Virus record (IMG/VR): IMGVR_UViG_3300025030_000239
Coordinates: 1 to 40,187 of that record
Length of the DNA: 40,187 nt
Strand: one strand, 5' to 3'
DNA from: a virus
Positions 3,364-29,463 of this stretch are shown piece by piece. The position numbers and the translations under genes were made by a program. The notes under the pieces were generated by a model that saw only the letters and a program-made list of their open reading frames with translations, was not told the origin of the DNA and made no database searches. Every line of letters begins with the position of its first letter. The stretch's first letter is position 1.

Positions 3364-4983
3364 TTATATTACTTTAGGTAATGGATTGTAAAATGTTTCG
3401 TGTGAAATAAAACTAGGGCTTCATTCACTTGTAAACTCGTATTTATACGTTAAATATCTTCATCTTTTATTATTCATGAGTCTTATTTGTCCTGTAGACA
3501 TAGAAAAAGCTCATTGGCTTACTAGACTTCATTCATCCACTCATACAGAGATTGTAACATTTTTTGCAAGAGCTTTCCAATTTATATAGTCTCTTTCGTA
3601 AATTTTATAGACGTTTTTATCTCATTGGTGCTTCTTCCCTGTGGTTATATCGCAAGCAAAATATACTCCGTCATCTGTAGAACCTCAAACAATGTATGTT
3701 TTTGTTGCAGATCCGAGATAAACGAATCAATTATTTATGAAAGAATCTACTATATTTTCAGGATAAACAAGTCTTGTCCATACTGTAGTCCTTTTCTTGA
3801 AACTCTGATCGATATCATAAACAAATACTTCATTTCAGATAGATAGATGATACCTATTGTTTATTAGCCACCCTGTAGCTTCTGAGAGTTCCTGTGCAGT
3901 GTGTGCAAGTATATCTGAGTTAATATCTATAGAAAGTGGCAATCATTCGTCTGTGGATGAATTTTCAAGGGTATTTATAGAGTAAACTCAACCGACTCAA
4001 AGAAAGAAATTCCAATTATTACCATGAGCTACACTTTTTGGAGCAATACAACCAATAGCTGTGTCGACTGGAATAAGCTGAAATTCATCCTCGTTGTAAC
4101 CTATAAGCCTATAACGTGAATTTTGCTTATAAACAATAACGTCTTGCAAGTTCTTTGTAACCTGAGTAATGATATCTCAGTCTTGATTTATAGGGATATA
4201 ATTATCTTTCGGAAAAAAATCAGTTCATAGATTTGACATATAAAGATAATCTAAATCTCTTCTAGCTCAGAATAATCTGTCATGCTGTACTTCTAGTGAA
4301 TGGAACTTAGGCATTGAAAGGGTAGTGAGAGTGGTTCAGTCATATTTGAATACTGAATCTGTACCATTTGTAACTATTACGTGTGGTGCTACTGCTCGGA
4401 TATCGTAAGTAGAGGTTGCATCTGGTGTAGTTTCAAATACTCAATCAATAAATAGTGTAGTAAGATCATTTGAAGTTATTGTTTTTTCTTGTCCTGATCC
4501 TGTACCTCAAGTTATTCTGAGAACCTTTGAAGCATATGCATTTATTGTCATTCATCCACCTGAAGGCTCGAAAGTTCTTGTTGTACTGTTTGCTGTACCG
4601 GTACCACTTTTAAGCGATGCTGTAGTAAGGTCTGAACAGTTGTAAGAAACTATTACTGAGCTTAGATTTGATACTGTGCTTACATCAGTCCATGTTGTAG
4701 TTACTAACTTCTGGAATTTTGTTCAAAAAACCCTGACTAATATATCTCAGGACTCTTTTTTAATTACTCATTGTGCATTTATCTTTGCTGTACCTGTTTG
4801 AGTTCAGTAAGTTGTTATTCAAGACCTGCACTCGAAACCTAAATCAGTTGTATAAATATTCTTGCAGTCAATGAATTTACTCTTTTTGATAAGAGTAGGA
4901 TCATTTGTAGAATCTAGACCGTTTGTTAATTGGAATAGTTCTGAGGGGTTATTTCTTCTCGCAGGTTTATAATTTATTGCCAT
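3364..4983 (-). CDS. Packaged-DNA stabilisation / tail needle-hub-like protein (P22 gp10 type), 539 aa
   Basis: Starts MAINYKPARRNNPSELFQL and looks like a beta-propeller with repeating strand patterns. It includes a segment typical of phage DNA-stabilisation proteins: VQHDRLFGARRD, then DIITQVTKNLQDVIVYKQN and a PVDTAIGCIAPKSVA stretch at about residues 320-345. P22 gp10 (about 470 aa) plugs the portal ring and is a propeller; length and gene position (after a small connector, before fibres) agree. UGA=Gly is needed throughout. ATTAATAG lies before the ATG at 4983 and no Shine-Dalgarno is seen. Family assignment is by resemblance. Confidence 0.75.
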
Positions 4984-4999
4984 AATTCACTATTAATTG

Positions 5000-5563
5000 T
5001 TATCAAAGTGTTATTAATTTCTGGTTTAACATAGACTGAGCTAGTTGTAGAGCATTTCAAGCACTTACATCATCTCTTATTCTTCTAAAGTATTCTACAA
5101 GGGCAAAATCAGCGATACATCTGTGTAATTCACTAGGAATCAAAGAGGGTTTATCTCAATCAGCAGAAAGTACAGTTATTAATGGAAGGAATGTAATATA
5201 AAGATTCGGAATATTTGTCTGAGTTACGATAGTCTTCGCTCATGCAACTCATCTTATCTCAAAATCAAAGTATCTGTTTGTAAAATCTCAATCTACTCAA
5301 CTATCTGTACTAAAATCTACCATAGATGCAAAATCTATAGTATCGAAAGTAGCAGGCAAAGTTCAGACCTTGTTTGTGATTACTACATTGGTTTTTGTAA
5401 GACCTATGTATTTTTTTACCTTTGCAGAGTTCTTTAAAATATCATACATATACTCGTAAGCCTTGTTTACGCATTTTTTATTCAATGAACCTCCTGTAAT
5501 CCATGTACTTGAAGTATCAAGGTGCAATTCTGCAAATTCAGTTTGTATTTCTGCAAAAGTCAT
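5000..5563 (-). CDS. Head-tail connector / tail accessory protein, 187 aa
   Basis: Starts MTFAEIQTEFAELHLDTSS. The N-terminal helical part (AYEYMYDILKNS) and a C-terminal helix (LHRCIADFALVEYFRRIRDD, then ALQLAQSMLNQKL) flank a beta-rich middle. This helix-beta-helix layout, the size and the position before the gp10-like gene fit a gp4-type connector that attaches to the portal. The match is to general features, so the specific family is uncertain; it is almost certainly a virion neck component. Confidence 0.65.
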
Positions 5564-12800: not shown

Positions 12801-13484
12801 CTAATGTCCGAAAACTCAAAACTTTTTGTAGATATTAGCATTTACCTCTGCTTGTGTTTCAGGTCTATCTCATGTGTTTGATTTAGTGCCTACTCAAGGG
12901 GTGAATGCTGAAGGCTTCATTTTAGCTTGAATTTCAGAATGTTTTGCAAGCATGGCTATCTGTGTTGGAGTTAGACCTTGCTCGTCTATTTGTCTCATTG
13001 TAGCAACGACTTCATCTCTAGATACTTTACTTATTCAGTATTTTTCAAATTCAGATGAATGAGATTCAGCAACTTTGTTATAAACATTGTCGATATATCT
13101 TTCAGTCTCAATTGATTCGAGTTTTTCTTGAAGTCATGATTTTTTCAATATTTCAAGGGCTTTTTGTTCTGCTCTTTGTTCAGCAGTATACTCGATCTCC
13201 TTTTTTCAGTCAGGATCAGTTTCATCATCGAATACTGGTTTTACTCTTCCTGATTCTTCTTTAATCCTTGCAAGTTCTTCCTTCGCTTCCTTTGCTTCTC
13301 TCTTTGCATTAGAGATTTGATATCTCATTTCTGCTTGAGGATCTTTCGCAGTAGGCTTATCGGTAGGATTAGCAGGATTTGGATTAGCTGGATTTTGCTC
13401 TTGTCAAGCAGTTTGGTTGTTTCAAGCTTCTCAGCCTGCGTTTGTATCAGCACCATTTGATGCATCTACTCAGTCAATTAACAT
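12801..13484 (-). CDS. Capsid scaffolding protein, 227 aa
   Basis: Residues 1-45 are a flexible Gly/Asn/Pro/Gln segment with the short repeat NPANP. Then comes a strong coiled coil (NAKREAKEAKEELARIKEES), a middle helix rich in Lys/Glu and a C-terminal region. This layout, the size and the position between portal and coat protein are those of a phage scaffold that directs procapsid assembly and is later released. The gene is preceded by a 5' leader with two twin hairpins and a TTGCAT-type promoter. Confidence 0.8.
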
Positions 13485-22572: not shown

Positions 22573-23169
22573 CTAATTTGCTAATCTCCATATATATCAT
22601 CATGCAGTTTTTCTTTTTAGGTTGCAACAACCTGATATATTTGAGCTAGGTATTCAGATAACTCTTGATGCTTCAGATATTCAAAACCATTTCTTTAAAA
22701 AAACAAAATTGATATCATATTGATTTACTGGTTTTGACATTTTACTATCTGCTCAAAATTTTCATTTTGTTCAACTTACACTTTTATTTCATAGGACTCT
22801 AAAACTATGTAGTAAATTTTCTGATTTTGTACACCATTCCAGATTATTTAATGTAAAATCAGATTTTATTCAATTTATGTGGTTTACATCAGGTTTGTTT
22901 TCAGGATTCGGTATAAAAGCTATTGCCATTAGTCTATGTATTGATTTTGTTTTTTCTTTAATATTATTATCTGTAAGTGATACCCTATAATATCAATGTG
23001 GATTCAGAGCAGGTTTTAGTATTCTTTTTTTTCAATACCTCAAAGATTTTACATTACCTTTATTTGAAATCTGATATAATCACTCATATCAAACAATATC
23101 TTTGAATATCTCTATATGATTATCTGATCTTATTTGTCATTGTAACTCTTTATATGTAACTTTATCCAT
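22573..23169 (-). CDS. Free-standing NUMOD4-HNH homing endonuclease, 198 aa
   Basis: Order of domains: a NUMOD4-type segment IFKDIVGYEGLYQISNKGNV (21-40), an HNH core with HRLMAIAF (78-85), PDVNHING (93-100) and NNLEWCTKSEN, and a C-terminal NUMOD1/IENR-type DNA-binding part ending KRKTAGGYIWRL. The glycines of YEG, HING and AGG are UGA and are family-conserved. It is a parasitic mobile gene inserted between the 146-aa gene and the next promoter. Closest relative in this window is the 206-aa copy at 25511. Confidence 0.9.
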
Positions 23170-24896: not shown

Positions 24897-25499
24897 TTAC
24901 TTTTTATCAACTAAACTTTGAATCTCTTTCATTTTTGCTATTCAAGTCTGGAATCATTTAATCAAATCCTCATGCTTTTTTGCATCTGGTAGTATTCTGA
25001 ATATAAGCAATGATTTTTTGTAGTTAGGATTGTATGAAACATAATCCCAGAATTTACGACCTGCAATAAGCAAGTTCATCTGAATTTGCCATAAATACTT
25101 TGTATCTATTTCAGATTCTCCGTTTAGAATCATTTTGAAATGGTTTATATCCTTAACGCATTTAATCTCGATCCCTCAGTCCTCTCAAATCAATCAATCT
25201 GGACTTGCTCAGATATATTCGTTGTATTCAATGAATCCGACCTCTTGAACTTTATTTCATGTTTCAAGCTCGTACATATCCCTTGCAATAGGTTCAAGTT
25301 CTACTCATCTTTCCATATCAGAGTTTGAATATCATTCTTTTTCTCATGTAGAGTTTTTCTCTGCCATTACCTCGATAATGTAAGTATCAAGCCCCTTTCA
25401 GTTGTTACCGATTGGCTGAGCATTGCTTGCAGTCATTTTTCATTTTCTTAATTCTTTCCATTCAGGAGTACCCTGAATTATATCTGTATAAATTTTCAT
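24897..25499 (-). CDS. YqaJ/lambda-exonuclease-family nuclease, 200 aa
   Basis: Processive DNA end-resecting exonuclease that works with the annealing protein at 26422-26784. Landmarks: QGTPEWKELRKGKMTASNA (9-27), ERGVELEPIARDMYE (63-77) and the catalytic core GASPDGLIGEDGGIEIKC with Asp101, Glu111 and Lys113. The Gly of SPDG is UGA, exactly where the family has a glycine. C-terminal helix DTKYLWQIQMNL is also typical. Separated from its annealing partner by a homing endonuclease, which looks like an insertion. Confidence 0.9.
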
Positions 25500-25510
25500 A
25501 AAAATAATTA

Positions 25511-26131
25511 TTAAATATTAAATGTCCATTTGTATCATCATGCTGATTTTCTTTTTCATTTACAGCATTTCCAAATATTTTGAAAACTTATATTAAGCTT
25601 CCTTCATGTATCATTTATTCCTATAAATTCTTTTATAAATTCTCATTCTAGACTAAATTGATATATTGATATACTTTTTTTATTATCTATTCCAAATTTT
25701 CCTTTGTTGTAACTTAATATAGGATGATTTACTTTCATTGTTCTTAATCATATTCTATACGAATGTAGACTATTCTCACTATGTGTACACCATTCTAAAT
25801 TACAATCATTATTATTTAATTTGTTTCAGTTTATATGATTTACACATGGTAGGTTTAATGGATTTGGTATAAATGTTATAGCTACTAACCTATGTACTTT
25901 CGATGTATTTAATTTATTATTTAGCGATAAAACTACACTTAAATATTGATTACCTATTATTCCTGTTAAACTAGGTTTTAATATCTTATAAGTTTTATAT
26001 AACAAGCTCTGAATATTTCATTTGTTGCTTATTTTATATCTTCATTCGTATCAAGGAATATCTTTAAAAATTTCTTCTTGATTATCCAGTCTTTCTTGTC
26101 TTGAAAGTTCTTTATATTCTAACCTGTTCAT
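25511..26131 (-). CDS. Free-standing NUMOD4-HNH homing endonuclease, 206 aa
   Basis: NUMOD4-like IFKDIPGYEGRYKISNKGNI (21-40), HNH core HRLVAITFIP (80-89), VNHINGNK (97-104) and CNLEWCTHSEN, and a C-terminal DNA-binding part ending CKGKRKSAGGYKW. UGA fills conserved glycines. Shares a similar N-terminal extension (YKELSRQ / YKELQGQ) with the 198-aa copy, so the two are likely paralogues. It follows a large pseudoknotted terminator and splits the annealing protein from the exonuclease. Confidence 0.9.
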
Positions 26132-26146
26132 AACATATAATTAAAA

Positions 26147-26226
26147 ACACTTACAACAGAGCTGAGTCGTCAAACGAAACTCTGTTGTAAGTGTCTATAA
26201 TAGACGACTCATTTAATTCGTTTGAC
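26147..26226 (-). terminator. Pseudoknotted terminator / attenuator-like RNA
   Basis: On the minus strand a perfect 15-bp stem (26194-26180 with 26161-26147) closes an 18-nt loop and is followed by GTTTTTAATT, the form of an intrinsic terminator. Two segments upstream in the transcript, GTCAAACGAA (26226-26217) and GAGTCGTC (26210-26203), are exact complements of parts of the loop, so loop-leader pairing is possible. It lies between the annealing operon and a homing endonuclease. Confidence 0.7.
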
Positions 26227-26263
26227 TTTAATAGTATATTAGATTATTTTAAATATCAATAGT

Positions 26264-26470
26264 TTATTTAATATTATTTTTAGTATCCTGAATTATTTGC
26301 AATTCTAATTTTCTCCTAGAAACTTCCTTTGCAATCTCTTTTCATTTTCACTCATTAGCTTTATAAAATATTCTAAGCTCATCTATCGAATTTATTTTAT
26401 TTATATAATCTATGAGTTCTTCTAGTTCTTCTTCTTGTTTTGTTTTCTGATATTCCATAAATTCTTCCAT
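26264..26470 (-). CDS. Small helical protein, 68 aa
   Basis: Starts MEEFMEYQKTKQEEELEELI; a second in-frame ATG lies four codons in. Glu-rich helix followed by a basic C-terminal helix. It overlaps the end of the annealing protein by 49 bases in another frame, so it is translationally linked. Could be a partner or regulator of the annealing protein; not recognised. Confidence 0.6.
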
Positions 26471-26784
26471 TCTTCAGATGAAGCTATATCTCCAGAAGCC
26501 ATATATCATAGCATAGCCAATGCTCTTCATACTGCTATGGTCTCTAATTTTTCAAAATCTTTATCTGCTTTTGATGTTCAAATTGCATGACCTGTTCATT
26601 CAGCAGAATCGGGATTTGATTTATCCTTTAGAATCCTAGCTTTGAATAGTATTTTTCAGTCAGGTAAAATTGTAGGAGTAGTTTCTATAAGTCCATACGG
26701 ACAGTCTTGCCTAAATTCCTTTATTCTAGCAGGAACAGTAGCATAATTTTTACCTTTTAGATCTATTGTCTCTGTTTTTTTCAT
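26422..26784 (-). CDS. Rad52/ERF-superfamily single-strand annealing protein, 120 aa
   Basis: Starts MKKTETIDLKGKNYATVPAR and includes the landmarks IKEFRQDCPYGLIETTPTIL (21-40), a strand FKARILKD, then SAEGTGHAIGTSKADKDFEK and LETIAVGRALAMLGYMASGD, in the order seen in short phage annealing proteins of the Rad52/ERF/DUF1071 group. It would anneal complementary single strands made by the YqaJ exonuclease. Glycines in GTGHAIG and VGRALA include UGA codons. The exact subfamily is uncertain. Confidence 0.75.
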
Positions 26785-28926: not shown

Positions 28927-29463
28927 TTATAAATATTTCCATATAAATCATCATATGCTTTTATACTTTCATCTACAACAAGCTGAAATATTTGCATTGT
29001 TAATTCATAATTCTCGTTGTATATCCATTAAACTATCCCATGTTTTTATACAATTTCATTGTAAATCAAATTGATTGGTTTTTTTACTACATGGACATAA
29101 TTTTCCTATTTTTCATTCTTTTCAATTTTTTCTTCATAAATATTTCCATGAGTGTCTAGTATTTTCTAATTGTGTCATCCATTCTAGGTTTTCTACTCGA
29201 TTATCAGTTTTTATTCAGTTTTTATGGTTTACTTGTGGTTTATTTTTTGGATTTAGTATAAAGGCTTTTGCTACAATTATATGGATTGCAATAGTTTTAT
29301 TATAAAAAACCATATGTGGGTATCATGAAGTATTCATACCTAATCGTAATATTCAATCCTTATCTTTACATCTTGTATTTTTAATAATAGATTTTACTCT
29401 GCCTAGATTTGATATTTGGTATTTTCATTCAAATCAGATTATATCTTTCCAAATTTCACTCAT
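28927..29463 (-). CDS. Free-standing NUMOD4-HNH homing endonuclease, 178 aa
   Basis: The clearest of the three copies: NUMOD4 at 4-25 (IWKDIIGFEGKYQISNLGRV), HNH residues His61 (AIHIIV), NHKNG (79-83) and VENLEWMTQ, and a C-terminal NUMOD1/IENR1 part ending CCRGKYKSIGGFIWKYL. At each family-conserved Gly (FEG, KNG, CRG, SIGG) the codon is UGA. It has no N-terminal extension, unlike the two copies at 22573 and 25511. Inserted directly after the replication initiator. Confidence 0.9.

Follow-up and report, generated by a model that had tools for sequence, protein, structure and literature searches.

A terminator-like hairpin with loop-leader complementarity before a homing-endonuclease-like gene: a candidate cis-acting leader in a phage read with genetic code 25

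The window analysed here, that is, the whole stretch of DNA under study, is an entire viral record of 40,187 bases. Long minus-strand genes appear in it under genetic code 25 (TGA = Gly), and this reading points to Absconditabacteria or Gracilibacteria as the host group. The locus of interest (Table 1) contains a homing-endonuclease-like gene that is readable only with TGA as glycine, preceded on the same strand by a hairpin and its leader. The domains found in this gene agree with a first-pass annotation, made from the letters alone, which had placed the structure just before a homing endonuclease. The comparison took in relatives of the gene upstream (L106-L113) and of the YqaJ exonuclease gene (L114-L119); where both genes were present they abutted or overlapped, with neither a leader nor an HNH gene in between; the leader and HNH gene of the window are therefore, judged by this comparison, an insertion. 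The upstream gene is split across two frames in the window (120 aa and 88 aa) and is a single ORF of 163-179 aa in relatives, the split being due either to an assembly error or to a true frameshift. No comparable leader precedes the other two HNH genes of the window (22573-23169 and 28927-29463), and a terminase-based search for relatives of the window's phage returned none.

Table 1 Features of the locus, in minus-strand order
Feature	Position	Strand	Basis or remark
Gene upstream of the hairpin, apparently frameshifted	26264-26784		Relatives of its first part are L106-L113
Possible -10 box TATACT, 6 nt before C'	26233..26238	-	Putative, from sequence only
C' (family segment K), GTCAAACGAA, leader complement of the hairpin loop	26217..26226	-	10/10 complement
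B', TGAGTCGTC, second leader complement of the loop	26203..26211	-	9/9 complement
A', 5' arm of the 15-bp terminator-like hairpin	26180..26194	-	15/15 complement, fold
C (family segment K'), loop segment TTCGTTTGAC	26169..26178	-	10/10 complement
B, loop segment GACGACTCA	26163..26171	-	9/9 complement
A, 3' arm of the hairpin	26147..26161	-	15/15 complement, fold
U tract TTTTT, overlapping the stem by its first T	26143..26147	-	Sequence
NUMOD4-HNH_3-NUMOD1 homing-endonuclease-like gene, 206 aa, genetic code 25	25511..26131	-	ORF and domain search
YqaJ exonuclease gene	24897-25499		After the HNH gene

Read along the minus strand, the elements follow one another as C'-B'-A'-(C/B loop)-A-U tract, and then comes the endonuclease ATG. 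The first-pass annotation had described three segments followed in the same order by their exact complements, and all three pairs lie where it put them, the B pair being one pair longer than claimed (9, not 8). Its assignment of a terminator to the minus strand also agrees with a 15-bp stem, a U tract and a predicted fold of -31.9 kcal/mol (z = -4.75) on that strand, against -27.8 kcal/mol on the plus strand. Segments B and C share 3 nt (GTC) in the loop, so that full formation of both pairings together is impossible. The U tract is short and partly paired upstream in the predicted fold, and it ends 11 nt before the start codon, with the end of the stem placed by the parser 13 nt from the ATG. 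No purine-rich Shine-Dalgarno site is present in the sequence between the hairpin and the ATG. A promoter scan of the window gave matches near the chance level, and promoter-like matches are to be expected often in AT-rich DNA. A five-codon ORF, ATGAGTCGTCTATTATAG (MSRLL), extends over B' and a small hairpin at 26195-26212 on the minus strand and has no Shine-Dalgarno site.

The A hairpin stands alone in the entire 40-kb record: no other non-palindromic inverted repeat within 80 nt has arms of 14 nt or longer. With the hairpin given, 200,000 trials, in which an 18-nt loop and one 60-nt flank were drawn with the same base statistics, produced a complement of 10 nt or more together with one of 9 nt or more in 2 cases. 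Among interleaved pairs in 757 kb of viral DNA the top scores belonged to the window (25, 24) and to L081 (24, 22), and nearly all values from ten shuffled sets, the best of them 23, were no higher. An architecture score calculated at the 1,516 ATGs of the window was 74 at the HNH leader, which is unique there, and 40.5 at the next. A chance origin of the interleaved pairs was rejected on the trials, the shuffled viral DNA and the scan of ATGs. The structure in L081 (3425-3534, minus strand) is an independent one, in which the loop segment TTTCCCCTCA can pair either with TGAGGGGAAA, which lies upstream, or with TGAGGGGAA; the latter resembles a Shine-Dalgarno site belonging to the gene that follows, whose ATG is at about 3421, and the whole looks like a translational switch.

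Folding in the course of synthesis was predicted by a model without pseudoknots. Before the A arm exists, C'.C is predicted to close around a small hairpin in which B' partly pairs with the 5' half of A', at -18.7 kcal/mol, a stability matched by 6 of 2,000 dinucleotide shuffles, and the terminator is predicted to overtake this intermediate some nucleotides before the U tract. The multi-state switch that had been proposed for the locus is not borne out, the sole hint of alternative states being this predicted intermediate that precedes the terminator. Rough energies of the pseudoknots, -30.5 kcal/mol with C and -32.2 kcal/mol with B, are so near the -31.9 kcal/mol of the hairpin alone that energy does not decide between the pairings. 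On geometric reasoning, as distinct from computation, C'.C is the likelier pseudoknot, because a B'.B pairing would leave a single nucleotide between B and arm A.

Leaders of HNH relatives obtained by a protein-based scan were read, and several had the same layout, which recurs before other NUMOD4-HNH genes in IMG/VR. An architecture score of at least 42 was reached by 9 of 36 HNH-relative leaders that had not been picked for leader features, compared with 10 of 1,440 Markov-resampled ones. For the 11 positives from the first scan, permutation of leaders and loops gave a p value of about 6e-5; that test was chosen after inspection, and for that reason reliance was placed on the later scans instead. 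The second scan, of DNA, looked for a U run followed by an ATG and MEVWK or MEIWK, selecting on the U run and not on loop-leader pairing, and yielded at least 97 distinct leaders. Among the matches listed, 78 of the 94 scored leaders (the window included) lay above the 2% shuffle threshold, the gap from segment K to the hairpin was mostly 22-26 nt, and that from the hairpin to the ATG was mostly 7-13 nt. In the third scan a first stem, P1, and part of the second hairpin were fixed and the leader segment K and loop segment K' were left free, and each of the 19 members with a variant K had a K' exactly complementary to it. The one exception to this complementarity, L315, has no other part of the element and was set aside as a coincidental match. 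Exact-stem and loop searches for close homologues of the window element found none, and the one loop match to the window (L120) is not in a hairpin. A known Rfam RNA, a tRNA or an intron was rejected as the identity of the window element or the family, as there were no matches, and in Rfam 15 neither the window nor any of 14 loci, mostly members of the family, scored above the gathering threshold; a sub-threshold DUF805 match (E = 4) was not counted as evidence. The family element is present in cultured Flavobacterium phages (vB_FspS group), among them vB_FspS_hattifnatt9-1 with its leader at 13303-13400, and several HNH genes of other cultured phages are without it.

In order, the family layout comprises a promoter box, P1 with K in its loop, an AU-rich spacer, the hairpin P2, the U tract and the ATG; P2 has a short inner stem, and its loop contains K'. 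A TAnnTTTG-like box stood 5' of K, at a distance of up to 30 nt and mostly of 9-10 nt, in 61 of 63 leaders, against 7 of 60 controls, a box of this kind being weak promoter evidence when taken alone because the genome is AT-rich. In an alignment of 49 leaders, made by MAFFT and not fitted to structure, whose members were chosen by a parser that demands loop-leader complementarity, 77.4% of cells were paired, against 56.4% after shuffling and 33-43% after sliding. In the same parser-chosen set two-sided changes numbered 246 cells against 93 +/- 9 after shuffling and occurred at every K-K' pair, the covariation score was 0.49 against 0.18 when shuffled, and five of five helices were supported; the third scan is free of the parser's selection on loop-leader pairing. 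Interior non-Watson-Crick positions of P2 were G.U in 15 cases, U.U in 7, C.U in 1 and A.C in none, as counted with a parser that accepts G.U in stems and so somewhat favours it, U.U being unfavoured and yet present. The occurrence of G.U without A.C in the hairpin points to an RNA of the coding strand. Two copies within one phage can differ in K (L182 and L194), which fits pairing inside each RNA.

The comparison bears directly on the proposal that the loop pairs with either of two leader segments. The C-type pairing withstood it, with compensatory changes and similar spacing in the leaders of other phages; these changes are in pairs equivalent to that of the window and not in the window's own. 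The B-type pairing did not, as a pairing of comparable length is present in none of the 63 scored family leaders (the next best is 7 nt), and B'.B, specific to the window record, is an extra of that record without comparative support. The genes that follow family leaders are mostly NUMOD4-HNH genes, and also include GIY-YIG, T5orf172/MUG113, HNH_3 and HNH_3 with AP2, as well as an uncharacterised phage protein of 78-79 aa; the fractions from a division into HNH and other genes by a crude motif were left out of account, since it mislabelled many HNH genes. In the family copies L281, L307, L269 and L274 the U tract is not directly followed by an ORF, and these may be independent small RNA genes or else relics from which the nuclease gene was lost.

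Several traits of the family recur in the window. A terminator-like hairpin and U tract stand near the start codon (about 6-13 nt in the family), the loop and leader are exact complements over 10 nt at C'.C (at least 6 nt, about 19-27 nt 5' of the hairpin, in the family), and a NUMOD4-HNH homing endonuclease lies downstream. C' is 22 nt 5' of the 15-bp stem (21 by the parser), matching the family spacing. The TATACT box, 6 nt before C' (about 6-13 nt from K in the family), is an ambiguous trait, as promoter-like matches are to be expected often in this AT-rich DNA. C'.C, judged by its placement in the sequence, occupies the K/K' position of the family. The family covariance model R1, which holds sequence and nested stems and excludes K-K', gave no match in the window at E <= 10, the E-values of this custom-built model being rough, and the flanks corresponding to P1 are AU-only (ATTAA/TTAAAT), with a predicted fold of 0.0 kcal/mol. 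On these traits the window element works like the family, but its descent from the family is unproven, given the lack of a covariance-model match and the weak or absent P1, and the element is best treated as a divergent or convergent example of a recurrent leader class and not as a proven descendant.

On balance, the window segment is probably a cis leader of the inserted HNH homing endonuclease that keeps its expression low. An RNA of about 85-95 nt from the minus strand would form the 5' leader of the free-standing HNH gene and would be transcribed from an adjacent putative promoter; the strong terminator-like hairpin would fold, and its loop would pair with the 5' leader in a C'.C pseudoknot that would fix the fold. 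With the hairpin and U tract ending 8-15 nt before the start codon, most transcripts would stop at the U tract and/or the ribosome would find no open landing region, and the effect on the endonuclease would be negative and cis-acting. Counting against this reading are the lack of a close homologue of the window element, the R1 model without a match in the window, the P1 without a predicted fold, the two leaderless HNH genes of the window, the short and partly paired U tract, the family copies without a gene directly downstream, and the HNH genes of other cultured phages that have no such leader. It is plausible, if somewhat short of probable, that a promoter, a kissing 5' RNA and a terminator abutting the ATG make up a portable cassette common to HNH, GIY-YIG and T5orf172 endonucleases, an undescribed class of cis-regulatory RNA of which the window would be a far-diverged member. 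No description of the leader family was found in the open-access subset of the literature. Selfish endonucleases need to be expressed without harm to the carrier phage, and little is available on the control of phage endonuclease expression outside the T4-like phages. If the cassette is real, a leader RNA travelling with nucleases of different folds would be a common, testable control point, and the cultured Flavobacterium phages that carry the element open it to direct experiment.

A small trans-acting RNA, with the endonuclease gene merely next to it, is an unlikely identity for the segment. The promoter box, compact fold and U tract do resemble a complete sRNA gene, and a few family copies (e.g. 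L281 and L307) have no ORF directly after them, but in most copies the end lies 7-13 nt ahead of a start codon, the genes there are mostly mobile nucleases, and the differing K of copies within one phage is unlike what a shared trans target would give. The absence of a family-model match, the weak P1 and the missing inner motif would suit an ordinary strong terminator whose leader pairings arose on their own, unrelated to the family, by convergence or template-switch mutation; the GTC overlap makes leader and loop circular permutations, which repeated template switching could yield. Such an origin is nevertheless distinctly unlikely, as the position before a NUMOD4-HNH ATG, the gap and the spacing are in or next to the family ranges, and the score of the window leader is unique in its phage.

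The predicted preference of the RNA for C'.C before the A arm is made is the ground for considering an attenuator under the control of a ligand or protein, in which C'.C and the small B'/A' hairpin would be a factor-stabilised antiterminator. This is very unlikely, since the terminator is far more stable and predicted to win before the U tract, no comparable antiterminator was noticed by eye in the family leaders, and no ligand is known. Highly improbable is an element acting as DNA, with inverted site copies bound by the endonuclease as an operator or a mimic of its homing site, although at the DNA level K and K' form an inverted repeat, and I-TevI represses its own synthesis at an operator that lies over its promoter and resembles its homing site (PMC2988022). 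K and K' sit in hairpin loops, the hairpin substitutions include G.U and no A.C, and one K precedes unrelated nuclease families, all of which speak against an element of this kind.

Type III toxin-antitoxin loci consist of a promoter, a pseudoknotted RNA, a terminator and then a nuclease gene, and their RNA is a repeat array that is cut by the endoribonuclease toxin. The window cassette has the same order of parts, but its leader is without a repeat array and its protein is a NUMOD4-HNH DNA endonuclease. T4-type phages limit homing endonucleases (I-TevI, mobE, segB) by RNA structures of the initiation region, whose hairpins sequester the Shine-Dalgarno site and are relieved by a late promoter inside the 5' arm (PMC3014915 and PMC2988022). 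The window leader resembles the structures of I-TevI, I-TevII, I-TevIII, segB and Aeh1 mobE in that an RNA hairpin, thought to limit expression, stands directly before an endonuclease ATG, whereas it has no evident Shine-Dalgarno site and does have a U tract and a loop that pairs with the 5' leader. A hairpin sequestering a Shine-Dalgarno site, the trait that marks the T4 type, was not found in the window leader, and the simplest reading is that the window leader may serve the same aim by another structure. In seg43 of Aeromonas phage 25 a very stable hairpin lies just upstream of the initiation region and does not cover it (PMC2988022). The two have in common a stable hairpin upstream of a homing endonuclease initiation region, with a putative function in both, and differ in the loop-leader pairing, which the available portion of that source does not describe for seg43. 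The T4 gene 32 leader pseudoknot, a nucleation site for gp32 autoregulation, is likewise a pseudoknot of a phage mRNA leader upstream of a start codon (PMC3014915), but its leader has no terminator and the gene is a different one.

Similar layouts were observed before genes that do not appear to be endonucleases. In L034 (103-234) the 12-nt loop of a terminator-like hairpin pairs over 8 nt with GGACTTTCC, which lies some 60 nt farther upstream, and the hairpin precedes an ORF that is replisome-organizer-like by eye. The kissing layout is also present in L188 (1880-1975, K of 11 nt), where the downstream gene encodes a small protein with a start resembling a signal peptide by eye and without a Pfam match, and in L205 (K of 8 nt), where the leader precedes a minus-strand ORF (4815-5465) likewise named replisome-organizer-like by eye.
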